A stretch of DNA of 26,464 nt, from the IMG/VR virus record IMGVR_UViG_3300011114_000086, positions 1 through 26,464 of that record; one strand, given 5' to 3'. The translations under genes and the position numbers were made by a program. This document shows, piece by piece, positions 22,314 through 26,464 of this stretch (positions are counted from its first letter, which is position 1; the number at the start of each line of letters is the position of its first letter). Under the pieces are notes generated by a model. That model worked only from the letters and a program-made list of their open reading frames with translations, was not told where the DNA came from and did no database searches. Source of the DNA: a virus.

Positions 22314-23570
22314 CTAAATCCCCGCAATTATGTCCATCGGCTCCCACTCATCATCGGCCTCCTCAAAGTAGCTGGTCACCGCCAACTGATCCATGTAAGA
22401 AAGCGCGTCGGGAAGGTCATCGTGTACGCCCTGGGACGGGAACATCAGTAACTGGTCAACAAAGTCATCCCACTTTTCTTCCGAATTAAGGATAACCCGC
22501 CCGTGCTCAAAACGTCCCTGTAACGACCAGATGATTCTATCGGTTTTCTTCCTATTACCGTGAGTCAAATCCACAATGTGCGAGTACACATTGCTCTTAC
22601 GCATCAAGTCACTTAAATACGGCAAAACCGCATTCTTTAGCGCCCCCCTCTCAATCCCCACGCTCAAAGGCCGGTAATCCCTCATCTTCATCAGTATCTT
22701 AGCCGCCGTTTCCCGTATATCCCAGCGCCCGTGCTCAATCTCTTTGACAAACCACTTCCCATCATCAGTCACCTTCACCACGCAAATGGCAGATTCATCC
22801 AGGCGCTTCTTAGCATTACCCGCTTGTTTGGCAACTTCCTCAAACCCCGCCAAATCAATCGCTACAAAGTAACTCCCATGCTCCGGTTCCACCCCGTACT
22901 TAATCCATTCCTCCTTGAACACGTCGGCGCCAGCATTACTAAATGAGGCCATGTACTCTTGCTTAAAAGAAAACGTACTAAGTGTCTTCTTTGCCGACTC
23001 AATCTCATCTGGGTCAATCAACGGGTTATCTGCCGTTGTAAAGTGCCAGGACTTCCACTCGGAATCAGTACCCTCCTGCCCTAAGTTATATAAATCATAA
23101 AACCAGTTTCTCCCCTTCGGAGTCCCAATCATCATGCAGCGACCCTTCTTATCACTCAAACTCGCACGAATAACTTGCTCCCAAGTACCAGGCTTAATAT
23201 CTGCCACCTCATCTAATACCGCATACGTCAAACTAACCCCACGCAAAGTATCAGGTCTATCAGCACCGCGCACATATATCCGCGCACCATTAATCAACGT
23301 AATATCTAAATTATTAACGTGCGAACCCTGTATTACCTCGCGGCCTAACTCTAATAATAAATCCCAGATAATCTGCCTCGACTGCCCCATAGTCGGACTC
23401 ACATATAACACCGCCGAACCAGGGGGGCAGCGTAGTCCTTCAATAATCAATGTAGTCGCTGCCAGCCTACTCTTGCCGCACCGCCGCCCAGCAGCGATAA
23501 CCTTGAACCTGGTGGTATCCGTAAACACCTCCTGCTGCCACGGCAAGAGAGAAAAATTAAGATCAGACAT
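22314..23570 (-). CDS. Terminase large subunit, 418 aa
   Basis: The ATPase part shows Walker A (AAGRRCGKSR, about 26-35), Walker B (TYAVLDEVAD, about 115-124) and the coupling motif IGTPKG (about 148-153). The nuclease part shows an RNase H-like first Asp (FVAIDLAG), a Glu in VGIERGAL and an Asp pair in HDDLPDALSY. It powers DNA packaging and cuts the concatemer. I use ATG 23570 (MSDLNFSLLPWQQEVF) with GAGG upstream; the open frame extends 18 codons further inside the small-subunit gene. The start overlaps the small-subunit stop by 8 nt. Confidence 0.95.
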   Translation of the reverse strand: MSDLNFSLLPWQQEVFTDTTRFKVIAAGRRCGKSRLAATTLIIEGLRCPPGSAVLYVSPTMGQSRQIIWDLLLELGREVIQGSHVNNLDITLINGARIYVRGADRPDTLRGVSLTYAVLDEVADIKPGTWEQVIRASLSDKKGRCMMIGTPKGRNWFYDLYNLGQEGTDSEWKSWHFTTADNPLIDPDEIESAKKTLSTFSFKQEYMASFSNAGADVFKEEWIKYGVEPEHGSYFVAIDLAGFEEVAKQAGNAKKRLDESAICVVKVTDDGKWFVKEIEHGRWDIRETAAKILMKMRDYRPLSVGIERGALKNAVLPYLSDLMRKSNVYSHIVDLTHGNRKKTDRIIWSLQGRFEHGRVILNSEEKWDDFVDQLLMFPSQGVHDDLPDALSYMDQLAVTSYFEEADDEWEPMDIIAGI

Positions 23571-24183
23571 CAACAATGTCCTCAGAATTAATAATCTCAG
23601 GATTAGAAATTGTGTTTTCTCCAAATCCAGTTATTGAGATTGTTACCGCACTACGCAAATGCTTTTCTTTTTCAAACATAGATACCGGCAACATTCTATC
23701 CATACATAGTTTAATCATTGCAGCTTGAGATGGATGGTCATCGTTCATTGCTATCTCAATTGCCTTTGTAACAACATTTGCACCAGCACTATCTAAAAGA
23801 ATTTTTTTTAGTTCTTTTATCTTTTGGTTATCTGTTTTTGCAATTATCTCTGGGGTTATGTTTTCAGCCAACCTATGCATTGGCGTTTTGAAAGACCCTT
23901 TTGGTCTACCCCGACCACGTTTAATTTTTGTCTGATTATCGCTCCACATCTTTAAAGATGCTGTATCTCCATCCAGTGCTTTGTTGTATATTGCTTTAGC
24001 AATCTGTCCGCTTGCCTTGGCCTGACCAAGTTCAATTTCTCGGCTGTAATGCTCTAAAAGCGTTTGCTCATCCAAGCCAATAAGAGCAGCAATCTCGTTA
24101 TATGGCAGGCCGATGCCACTGGTTGACTCAACCAGTCGCCGATGCTCCAGCGTTGGCGTGTATTCAAGCGTCTGCAAGTTCAT
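23563..24183 (-). CDS. Terminase small subunit candidate, 206 aa
   Basis: Residues about 13-55 form a helix-turn-helix with 'LPYNEIAALIGLDEQTLLEH', followed by 'AKASGQIAKAIYNKALDGDT' and a LKMW segment, a pattern common in small terminase subunits of this phage group. An AT-hook-like basic core, RGRGRPKG at about 89-96, lies in the middle and could contact the minor groove. The C-terminal half is helical with an Ile-rich tail. It is placed directly upstream of, and overlapping, the large subunit. It would recognise the packaging site. Confidence 0.8.
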   Translation of the reverse strand: MNLQTLEYTPTLEHRRLVESTSGIGLPYNEIAALIGLDEQTLLEHYSREIELGQAKASGQIAKAIYNKALDGDTASLKMWSDNQTKIKRGRGRPKGSFKTPMHRLAENITPEIIAKTDNQKIKELKKILLDSAGANVVTKAIEIAMNDDHPSQAAMIKLCMDRMLPVSMFEKEKHLRSAVTISITGFGENTISNPEIINSEDIVDV

Positions 24184-25375
24184 CGCGCTCCTCCAAAACC
24201 GCCTTCTTACCTGTGAATTCTTCCCAACGCTTTACTATGACATCGCAGTATTTGGGGTCAAGTTCCATAACGTTAGAAATCCGACCGTTCTTTTCAGCCG
24301 CAATCATAGTTGTGCCAGATCCGCCAAACGAGTCAAGCACAATATCCCCGCCTTTGGTGTTATTTAGCATTTGGTACTCAAACAAAGCCACGGGCTTCAT
24401 GGTTGGATGTTCTTTGTTACGGCTTGGTCTTTCAAATTCTAATATTGTGGTTTGCTTACGGTCTGTGGCCCACAAGTGCCCAGCACCTTCTTTCCACCCA
24501 TAAAGGCACGGTTCGTGCTTCCAATGATAGTCCTGCCTTCCCAACACCATAGAAGACTTCTTCCAAATTAAACATTGGCGAACTTTCCATCCAGCATCAT
24601 GGCAAGCACCTCGAAAGTTATAACCTTCACTATCGGCGTGCCAAATGTAGAAAACTGCCCCTGGCTTCATAACAGTATCCGCAGCAGTGTAAGAATCGCG
24701 TAAGAATTGACGGAACTGGTCGTCGCCCATTGAGTCGTTCTTGATGGTCAGCTTTTCCTTGGTACAACCCTCGTAGGCCACGTTGTAGGGCGGGTCGGTC
24801 AGCCACATATCCACCATCTGTCCATTAGTCAGTTTTGCCAGATGCTCCATGCTGGTGCTGTCGCCACACATAAGCCTGTGCTTACCAAGCAGCCAAATAT
24901 CCCCAGACTTAGTAATCGAATCGGGGCCAACTTCTGGAACGGCATCCTCGTCCGTTAACCCTTCAATAACATCTGGCTCTAGCAGCGCGTTTAACTCGCT
25001 GGTGTCAAATCCCAAAATATCCAGCGCATACCCATCAGCCAAAAGTTCATTTAACTCAATAGTCAGCATTTCATTATCCCATCCAGCATTTAACGCCAGC
25101 CGGTTGTCAGCAATTACATAAGCCTTTTTTTGCGTTTCCGTCATTTCGGACAGTTCAATGGTCGGAACCTCGGTGTAACCCAGCTTCCTTGCCGCCATCA
25201 ATCGCCCGTGGCCAGCAATCACTACGCCCTCGGCATCCACCAAAATAGGATTTGTCCAGCCAAACTCCTTAATGCTGGCAGCAATCTGGGCCACTTGCTC
25301 GTCCGAGTGCGTCCGGCTGTTCCTCGCGTAAGGTATTAAGTCGCTTACGCTGCGCTGTGTAATGGTGATGCTCAT
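24164..25375 (-). CDS. ParB-like domain fused to DNA methyltransferase, 403 aa
   Basis: The N-terminal 110 residues are a ParB/sulfiredoxin-like domain ('DLIPYARNSRTHSDEQVAQI', then GHGRLMAARKLG at 55-66). The second part is a Rossmann-type methyltransferase: DPPY at 194-197, 'HPTMKPVALFEYQML' from 323, and the AdoMet loop DSFGGSGTT at 348-356. DPPY before FxGxG marks the beta class (N6-adenine or N4-cytosine). It probably protects phage DNA or marks it; the target site is unknown. It is the first gene of the leftward operon, beside the origin-like region, and overlaps the small-terminase start by 20 nt. Its ribosome site is weak (GGG). Confidence 0.92.
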   Translation of the reverse strand: MSITITQRSVSDLIPYARNSRTHSDEQVAQIAASIKEFGWTNPILVDAEGVVIAGHGRLMAARKLGYTEVPTIELSEMTETQKKAYVIADNRLALNAGWDNEMLTIELNELLADGYALDILGFDTSELNALLEPDVIEGLTDEDAVPEVGPDSITKSGDIWLLGKHRLMCGDSTSMEHLAKLTNGQMVDMWLTDPPYNVAYEGCTKEKLTIKNDSMGDDQFRQFLRDSYTAADTVMKPGAVFYIWHADSEGYNFRGACHDAGWKVRQCLIWKKSSMVLGRQDYHWKHEPCLYGWKEGAGHLWATDRKQTTILEFERPSRNKEHPTMKPVALFEYQMLNNTKGGDIVLDSFGGSGTTMIAAEKNGRISNVMELDPKYCDVIVKRWEEFTGKKAVLEERDELADA

Positions 25376-25449
25376 AGCCCAAAATATATCAGAAATAAAT
25401 CTTTTTTTTATTTTTCCAACAGATGAAATGGTAAAAATTACGTTTTAGC

Positions 25450-25520
25450 TTTTTCGGAGGGGAGGAAGCACCCACAATTTCAACAGCCGAGGCCGACCCC
25501 TCCCCCCCCTATCCGAAAAA
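25450..25520. repeat. Long inverted repeat beside the DnaA boxes
   Basis: TTTTTCGGA (25450-25458) is exactly complementary to TCCGAAAAA (25512-25520). Just inside, GGGGAGG (25459-25465) faces a C-rich CCCCTCCCCCCCC run (25497-25509), so the stem could extend with small bulges around a loop of about 30 bases. The T tract comes before the stem and the A tract after it on both strands, so it is not a normal terminator. A replication-related or regulatory structure is possible. Confidence 0.6.
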
Positions 25521-25527
25521 TCAGAAG

Positions 25528-25560
25528 TTATCCACAGGCAGCTGTGGATACTGTGGATAA
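25528..25560. promoter_or_regulatory. DnaA-box cluster 1 (three boxes)
   Basis: TTATCCACA lies at 25528-25536 (+). TGTGGATAC at 25543-25551 is the same box on the - strand with one change, and TGTGGATAA at 25552-25560 is a perfect - strand box directly adjacent. The first two face each other as an inverted repeat (TATCCACAG / CTGTGGATA, loop GCAG). The consensus DnaA box is TTATCCACA. Confidence 0.75.
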
Positions 25561-25661
25561 CATTCGTAAGTCGTTGATTTCATTGACATTCTGCAAATGC
25601 GTCCGACTTAGTTCAGTGGTTGCACTTAATACAAGGTTCATTATGTTAAGTTATCGCATGC

Positions 25662-25681
25662 TTATCCACAGGATATCCACA
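25662..25681 (+). promoter_or_regulatory. DnaA-box cluster 2 (two boxes, 11 bp apart)
   Basis: TTATCCACA at 25662-25670 is a perfect box, followed by ATATCCACA at 25673-25681 with one change. Their starts are 11 bp apart, one helical turn, in the same orientation, so two DnaA monomers would sit on the same face. Confidence 0.75.
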
Positions 25682-25702
25682 GGCAAATTGCACAGAACCG
25701 AG

Positions 25703-25759
25703 TTATCCACAGCAAATTGTGGATAGAACCTGGCAACTGGCATCTTGGATTGTGGATAA
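25703..25759. promoter_or_regulatory. DnaA-box cluster 3 (three boxes)
   Basis: TTATCCACA at 25703-25711 (+) faces TGTGGATAG at 25718-25726 (- strand, one change) as an inverted pair with loop GCAAAT. A perfect - strand box TGTGGATAA follows at 25751-25759. The right end is next to the GC-rich tract. Confidence 0.75.
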
Positions 25760-25909
25760 CTCGAGCCAGCGAGCGCGGCGGCGCGGCGCGGGGAAAGAAA
25801 AAGTGAGAAAGGGTTGGGTGGTGCTTTGTCGCCGTACTTGGCCTAGAATGACAATTCAATCACTGATAAAAAACTTCTCTAAAAAGTAATGCTTTAACCG
25901 CCAACCAAT

Positions 25910-25950
25910 GCCGATTAAAGCCGTTTAAAAGGCCATTTAAGGCCAGTTAA
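25910..25950. repeat. Four phased GCC-N-N-TTAA repeats (iteron-like)
   Basis: GCCGATTAA (25910), GCCGTTTAA (25920), GCCATTTAA (25932) and GCCAGTTAA (25942) repeat with steps of 10, 12 and 10 bp, about one helical turn. The last one covers the stop codon of the neighbouring - strand gene. They could bind a phage replication or regulatory protein. A weak GGCC hairpin in the same stretch is an alternative reading. Confidence 0.45.
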
Positions 25951-26171
25951 TTATCAGGTGGTGGGAGGGTAAGGGAAACTGATTCCAAGGCCATATAAGG
26001 ACGCAATCCAAGGTTATAAAAATGTCGATAGGCATCGATCACTTCTAAAAATCCTGCTGACATATCACCTTGACCGGCGGCTAAAAGGGTAGCGCGTTCA
26101 GCAGGCCCAAGTTTCCTTTGAAAGTGTTTGACATTTGGGTTTGCTGGCCTGCCTAAACCATAAACTCCCAT
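25947..26171 (-). CDS. Hypothetical protein, 74 aa
   Basis: ATG 26171 follows GAGG at the stop of the upstream gene. The product starts MGVYGLGRPANPNVKHFQRK, has 'LGPAERATLLAAGQGDMSAG' with helical character and ends with a Pro-rich SLTLPPPDN. There is a Gly-Arg-Pro core at the N-terminus but no full AT hook. No membrane segment or cysteine is present. I do not recognise a family. A regulator acting on the adjacent origin-like region is possible only by position. Confidence 0.65.
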   Translation of the reverse strand: MGVYGLGRPANPNVKHFQRKLGPAERATLLAAGQGDMSAGFLEVIDAYRHFYNLGLRPYMALESVSLTLPPPDN

Positions 26172-26174
26172 TCT

Positions 26175-26464
26175 CTACCTCACAAACGCTTTGGTATCGA
26201 ACAGCTTGGGAAGGGTATTGGGCCGCATATCCAAATCGTTGACCATATCGTCAAACCCTGATGGACCGCCAACCGATACCACTTGACTATCGGGCCACAG
26301 CCGCTTGATCTCGTTGATCTGTCCCTGTGCCTGCTGCCCCACGATCAGGGCAATCTCTGCCATTGTCCAGACAACCCTGTCGGTTGTACCAGGCCACTGC
26401 TGGAGGTACAAGCGTTTGGCTCGTTCATCTGGCACGACAACGAAAACCGTTCCATCGGGTTGCT
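26175..26464 (-). CDS. Hypothetical protein, partial at the window edge
   Basis: The frame is open to the right edge; the last visible residues read QPDGTVFVVVPDERAKRLYL. A GTG at 26435 could start an 86-aa product, but it has no clear ribosome site and the sequence upstream in frame is protein-like (FVVVPDE strand), so the gene probably begins outside. The visible part mixes helices and strands with 'RVVWTMAEIALIVGQQAQGQ' and 'SQVVSVGGPSGFDDMVNDLD'. No motif is recognised. Only 4 nt separate it from the next gene. Confidence 0.6.
   Translation of the reverse strand, partial: QPDGTVFVVVPDERAKRLYLQQWPGTTDRVVWTMAEIALIVGQQAQGQINEIKRLWPDSQVVSVGGPSGFDDMVNDLDMRPNTLPKLFDTKAFVR

Follow-up and report, generated by a model that had tools for sequence, protein, structure and literature searches.

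What does a dense array of DnaA-box-like repeats do beside the packaging genes of a phage, and which protein binds it? DnaA sites are known in a few phages, where they mostly lie beside phage initiators. The array analysed here lies in an uncultivated phage contig of 26,464 bases (an IMG/VR virus record), the whole of which is termed the window, and had been read in the original prediction as a bacterial-type origin within a phage genome. The array itself and, as the best reading, the recruitment of host DnaA withstood our analysis, whereas a switch in GC skew did not. We consider the array to be a control region bound by host DnaA, most likely the phage replication origin (probability roughly 0.6). 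Notable here is the probable replacement of an initiator gene by a DnaA-dependent origin, itself of a known kind, in some members of a widespread group of uncultivated phages. This reading draws on the clustering, conserved position, substitution pattern and phasing of the boxes, on their link to module type and on the overlap of one box with a promoter-like element; from these sequence features we infer that DnaA binds, that the array acts as an origin, where it melts and that it regulates transcription.

Composition and nucleotide pattern of the array

The features of the window around the array are presented in Table 1. Genes on both sides of the array lie on the minus strand; in the coding direction, g74 and the end of g212 are upstream, and a methyltransferase gene, the probable terS, terL and an SU10/P22-like portal gene are downstream. 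Eight boxes of the form (N)TATCCACA were located within 25528-25759 (232 bp) and five of the eight were exact copies of TTATCCACA, the box number and identity first claimed being borne out by both the coordinates and the exact 9-mer count. All five occurrences of this 9-mer in the window fell within 25376-25946, where chance predicts 0.22 for the window and 100 shuffles gave at most two. The 8-mer TATCCACA occurred nine times in the window, eight of them in the same region (0.80 expected), and its clustering was unmatched by any other 8-mer there or elsewhere in the window. The largest box cluster in a stretch of such size was two in 400 simulated windows. The box cluster is real and not due to chance, as had been proposed. 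Using a threshold of at least three DnaA boxes within 100 bp, two clusters were recovered, the first (25528-25560) holding three boxes and the second (25662-25759) five. The core of the proximal cluster, GTTATCCACAGTATCCACAGNTGCCTGTGGATAAC, had an exact match in 10 IMG/VR stretches, the distal cluster aligned with relatives, and inverted pairs of the form TATCCACA-N6-TGTGGATA were recurrent. No RNA family was identified at the locus using Rfam.

Table 1 Positions of the array and of neighbouring genes and elements in the window.
Feature	Position	Strand	Details
Intergenic control region with DnaA-box array	25376..25946		571 bp; no convincing gene; in relatives likewise flanked by g74 and (MTase)-terS
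Proximal box cluster	25528..25560		25528+ TTATCCACA, 25543- GTATCCACA, 25552- TTATCCACA
Distal box cluster, first part	25662..25759		25662+ TTATCCACA, 25673+ ATATCCACA, 25703+ TTATCCACA
Distal box cluster, remainder	25662..25759		25718- CTATCCACA, 25751- TTATCCACA
Large terminase subunit (terL)	22314..23624	-	phrog_2 7.7e-47; Terminase_6N
Probable small terminase subunit (terS)	23563..24183	-	phrog_309 4.6e-4 (weak) and place before terL
ParB-N/N6-N4 DNA methyltransferase (MTase)	24164..25375	-	phrog_498 1.4e-174, PF01555; first gene downstream of array
A+T-rich flank	25376..25447	-	78% A+T; occurs beside methylase gene only (alignment)
Poly-G element GGGGGGGAGGGG...CTCCCC next to terS/MTase	25455..25513	-	Shared by nearly all TerL relatives, box-bearing or not
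28-bp imperfect dyad ACTTAACATAA-TGAACC-TTGTATTAAGT	25624..25651	-	XerD-arm-like half; overlaps promoter-like element
Promoter-like TGGATA - 17 bp - CATAAT, facing MTase-terS operon	25640..25668	-	-35 hexamer inside box 25662-25670
g74, small conserved gene on early side of array	25947..26171	-	60 related IMG/VR loci
g212, 3' part, cut by contig end	26175..26462	-	Marks replication module of relatives G001/G002

Across 37 related regions, 70 exact boxes were counted versus 0.22 expected. Single-base variants in these regions, which are related by descent so that the counts are not independent, were concentrated at position 1 (n = 19), position 3 (n = 22, all A>G) and position 5 (n = 27, mostly C>G); only two occurred at other positions, and each class was expected below ~1. 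This resembles TTWTNCACA, the published DnaA consensus, in which C is best at position 5 (PMC5835720), but position 3 is A/G here rather than the A/T of the E. coli consensus. Same-strand box spacings peaked at 11-12 and 22-23 bp, which corresponds to helical phasing. Both the variant pattern and the 11/22-bp spacing are as would be expected for DnaA, and host DnaA would be the simplest binder of the boxes.

Conservation of the array among related phages

The position of the array was conserved among relatives, as the original prediction had proposed to check. In close relatives it lay between g74 and (methylase-)terS-terL, including where the methylase was absent, and the nearest of them (L143, L142/L106, L100, L141) carried 5-8 boxes each. 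In the alignment the boxes formed conserved blocks, along with the poly-G element by terS, and the ACTTAACATAATG motif between the box clusters was also conserved. The A+T-rich flank of ~70 bp described at the outset exists, but it was not conserved with the array. Many relatives lack the methyltransferase gene at this place, so that it is an optional insertion separating array from terS, and the flank is probably its leader or promoter rather than an unwinding element. As a DUE the flank was rejected, being linked to the methylase insert and not kept with the array.

We further ran an unbiased scan of IMG/VR for three direct TTATCCACA boxes within ~90 bp, which returned at least 119 loci. Among the box-triplet matches listed, 33 of the 119 loci encoded a related TerL (52-81% identity in the 24 loci listed of the 33), and 32 of these 33 had at least three boxes no more than 900 bp upstream of terS/terL; in the exception, L259, the boxes were at 1.4-1.8 kb. 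DnaA-box arrays are thus widespread, and a large part of them belongs to this terminase clade. The gene always found next to the array was terS. Many other viral contigs (L246-L324) also carried TTATCCACA triplets, their terminase being unrelated or missing. A DnaA gene above the cut-off was found in 0/50 other array-bearing viral records scanned.

No close cultured phage was found, the best TerL matches being partial and <60% identical and the portal <27%. When 84,980 genomes of bacteria and archaea were scanned for TerL, a single distant match came up (55%, in a MAG), so that phages of this group are not common prophages; a lytic lifestyle is plausible. As a route to host assignment via prophages, this lone terminase match was uninformative. 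A search limited to openly accessible literature returned no account of podoviruses with arrays of this kind.

Occurrence of the array with replication module type

The window's own replication genes lie beyond the contig end and were deduced from close relatives. The contig breaks off within g212, whose identity to the copies in G001 and G002 is 83-98% (83% to G001, 98% to G002/L106), and on this basis the phage probably has the same replication module as these two genomes. G001 (~33.4 kb) was taken as complete because of a 123-bp terminal overlap. Both genomes encode a RuvC-like resolvase and a DUF2800 exonuclease, together with a TOPRIM/AAA_25 primase-helicase that is a relative of the RSF1010 RepA helicase (1g8y, E 2.3e-5). 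The predicted structure of the primase-helicase (mean pLDDT 60) was uninformative, that of g212 (mean pLDDT 69) was likewise uninformative and gave no PDB match below E 0.17, and g74 had no family match in profile comparison.

A phage initiator gene, whose presence elsewhere in the genome had been raised as a check, was not recognised in the array-bearing module of the relatives. The scan covered early proteins of G002, selected proteins of G001 and only part of the small ORFs, and within that set no polymerase, initiator or integrase was recognised. Nor was there a family match to an initiator of the P1 type (RepA/RepL-like) among those proteins, the window itself being truncated. O-like or DnaD-like initiators or loaders were absent from the array-bearing module scanned and present in array-lacking relatives, and DUF1376 occurred in 0/24 array-bearing records.

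Some relatives keep the intergenic region without boxes, an outcome initially named as one that would count against an origin; these box-less relatives do exist, but they usually carry another replication module. Arrays were absent from relatives with a near-identical terminase and a different module, and array-lacking relatives often encoded O-like, DnaD-like or primosomal proteins, or a D5-like helicase together with a family A polymerase. At least two boxes were present in 26/28 loci with the AAA_25 module compared to 1/28 other loci. On a DNA tree of terL-portal, 11 independent pairs fell on supported branches, of which 8-11 were concordant and none opposite (p ~0.002), and the terL protein tree alone gave only four pairs (p 0.125). 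Some relatives with the array-linked module (L122, L107, L144) had no or one exact box. Deep relatives (TerL 53-60%) carried arrays together with a family A polymerase of their own, which contradicts the notion that arrays occur only in polymerase-free phages. Module and array are adjacent, and their joint exchange could reflect linkage without functional dependence.

Probable origin function and its alternatives

Judged by the comparison of relatives, the array is best read as recruiting host DnaA for replication. Host DnaA would oligomerise on the head-to-tail and inverted boxes, and the complex would melt A+T-rich DNA close by, for which the conserved ACTTAACATAATG stretch within the array is a candidate. 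The melted DNA would provide entry for the phage's own TOPRIM/RepA-type primase-helicase, a step proposed because the module yielded neither a recognisable initiator nor a helicase loader. The ACTTAACATAATG stretch was only moderately unstable, and the A+T-rich flank was not conserved with the array. The suggested GC-skew change was not seen: in G001 and G002 there was no switch at the array and skew followed gene strand.

Known systems share some of these properties. Like bacterial oriC (e.g. that of E. coli), the array consists of TTATCCACA-type boxes clustered in mixed orientation in a non-coding stretch, with roughly 11/22-bp phasing and degeneracy at position 5. Unlike oriC, it lies on a phage next to terminase genes, without dnaA/dnaN neighbours or a GC-skew switch, and its unwinding element is only a candidate (the ACTTAACATAATG stretch). 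The RSF1010-type plasmid resembles the relatives in its RepA helicase. Its origin uses its own RepC and iterons, not DnaA, whereas a RepC-like gene was not recognised in the relatives' module. The P1 plasmid origin oriR, with RepA, contains DnaA boxes. Phage P1 has two initiators of its own, RepA and RepL, whereas none was recognised in the module that the studied phage's relatives carry, and the studied group has 5-11 boxes compared to a few in P1. The P1 lytic origin is likewise a replication region with DnaA sites, two of them, plus RepL (PMC9948254). Mutating two DnaA sites near this origin was without significant effect on RepL-mediated amplification (PMC9948254), which cautions against equating DnaA sites with origin function.

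One box also coincides with a putative promoter. The promoter-like site matched at 9/12 positions and was the sole one in 25300-26180, a lone match being the shuffle expectation. Among 30 distinct related regions, chosen for a CATAA motif, box-like CTGTGSAYA stood exactly 17 bp before CATAAT in 28, the others being single-base departures, and the 17-bp spacing was kept in 30/30. Two relatives encoding an O-like/DUF1376-type protein (L161, L185) kept the promoter with only one or two boxes. Given the 17-bp spacing and the retention of the promoter in these two relatives, it is plausible that at least one box acts in transcription. The boxes might be mainly a transcriptional switch, with host DnaA as repressor or activator of the promoter that leads into terS and the late genes, and with replication starting elsewhere. 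The near-invariant spacing, the single promoter-like match in the window's region and the constancy of terS as neighbour all speak for such a switch, and the last of these fits a transcriptional role equally well as an origin. However, the switch leaves unexplained both the 5-11 phased boxes over >200 bp and the way the array follows the replication module, and the single match is what shuffles give. As a full account of the array we regard it as unlikely, if by no means negligible. The datA, mioC and dnaA-promoter regions, where boxes also overlap or adjoin a promoter and may titrate DnaA, differ from the array, which is on a phage, has more exact boxes and is tied to the replication module.

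Under the origin reading, DnaA occupancy of the box over the -35 hexamer may tie late transcription to replication, a possibility raised because this box overlaps the -35 of the promoter reading into terS. A wider scenario, which we put forward only tentatively and think rather doubtful as a whole, is that a broad uncultivated phage group replicates from a host-DnaA origin instead of a phage initiator, with the array fused to the packaging-gene promoter, an arrangement in which DnaA occupancy, and its dilution with rising copy number, would switch the phage from replication to packaging. If a conserved array does stand in for the initiator gene in part of this widespread, mostly uncultivated family, these phages would depend directly on the host cell-cycle initiator, their origins could be located in metagenomes by a sequence signature, and host growth state, phage replication and packaging would be linked in a testable way.

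It is improbable that the repeats only resemble DnaA boxes and serve a phage protein as operators or assembly sites, or belong to a site of packaging or recombination. The recurrent inverted pairs are compatible with this, as is the conservation in the same region of the poly-G element by terS and the 28-bp dyad with its XerD-arm-like half. The substitution pattern and spacing are nevertheless those expected of DnaA, and the poly-G element and dyad are also present where boxes are absent. As for a phage protein, g212 adjoins the array in G001-type genomes and had no match in G009-type or box-lacking genomes. The poly-G tract and its downstream C-rich counterpart before terS/methylase are a candidate packaging (pac/cos) site in their own right. 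The dyad was kept in relatives, including some box-less ones, and inverted in some (L144, L154). Its TTAACATAA half matches the XerD arm; compared over the full 11-6-11 layout with XerC and XerD arms, the site scored 17/28 against dif, no better than shuffles, and its likeness to dif is kept as a lead only.

Least probable, and less favoured than recruitment of host DnaA for replication, is a datA-like sink titrating host DnaA during infection and stopping new initiation on the host chromosome: in E. coli, initiation is delayed by plasmids whose DnaA boxes titrate DnaA (PMC5835720), and a phage genome present in many copies, each with eight boxes, would presumably bind many monomers, but a sink needs neither a fixed place next to terS nor a tie to replication-module type.

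Two further repeat sets were observed near g74. At its end in the window (25900-25946, minus strand) there were short imperfect repeats (GCCGATTAA / GCCGTTTAA / GCCATTTAA / GCCAGTTAA), which were iteron-like and not clearly conserved. In five relatives (L085, L089, L148, L165, L190) a second cluster of three same-strand boxes, with spacings of 11 and ~181 bp, lay between the primase-helicase gene and g74, and most of these five had more boxes downstream of g74.
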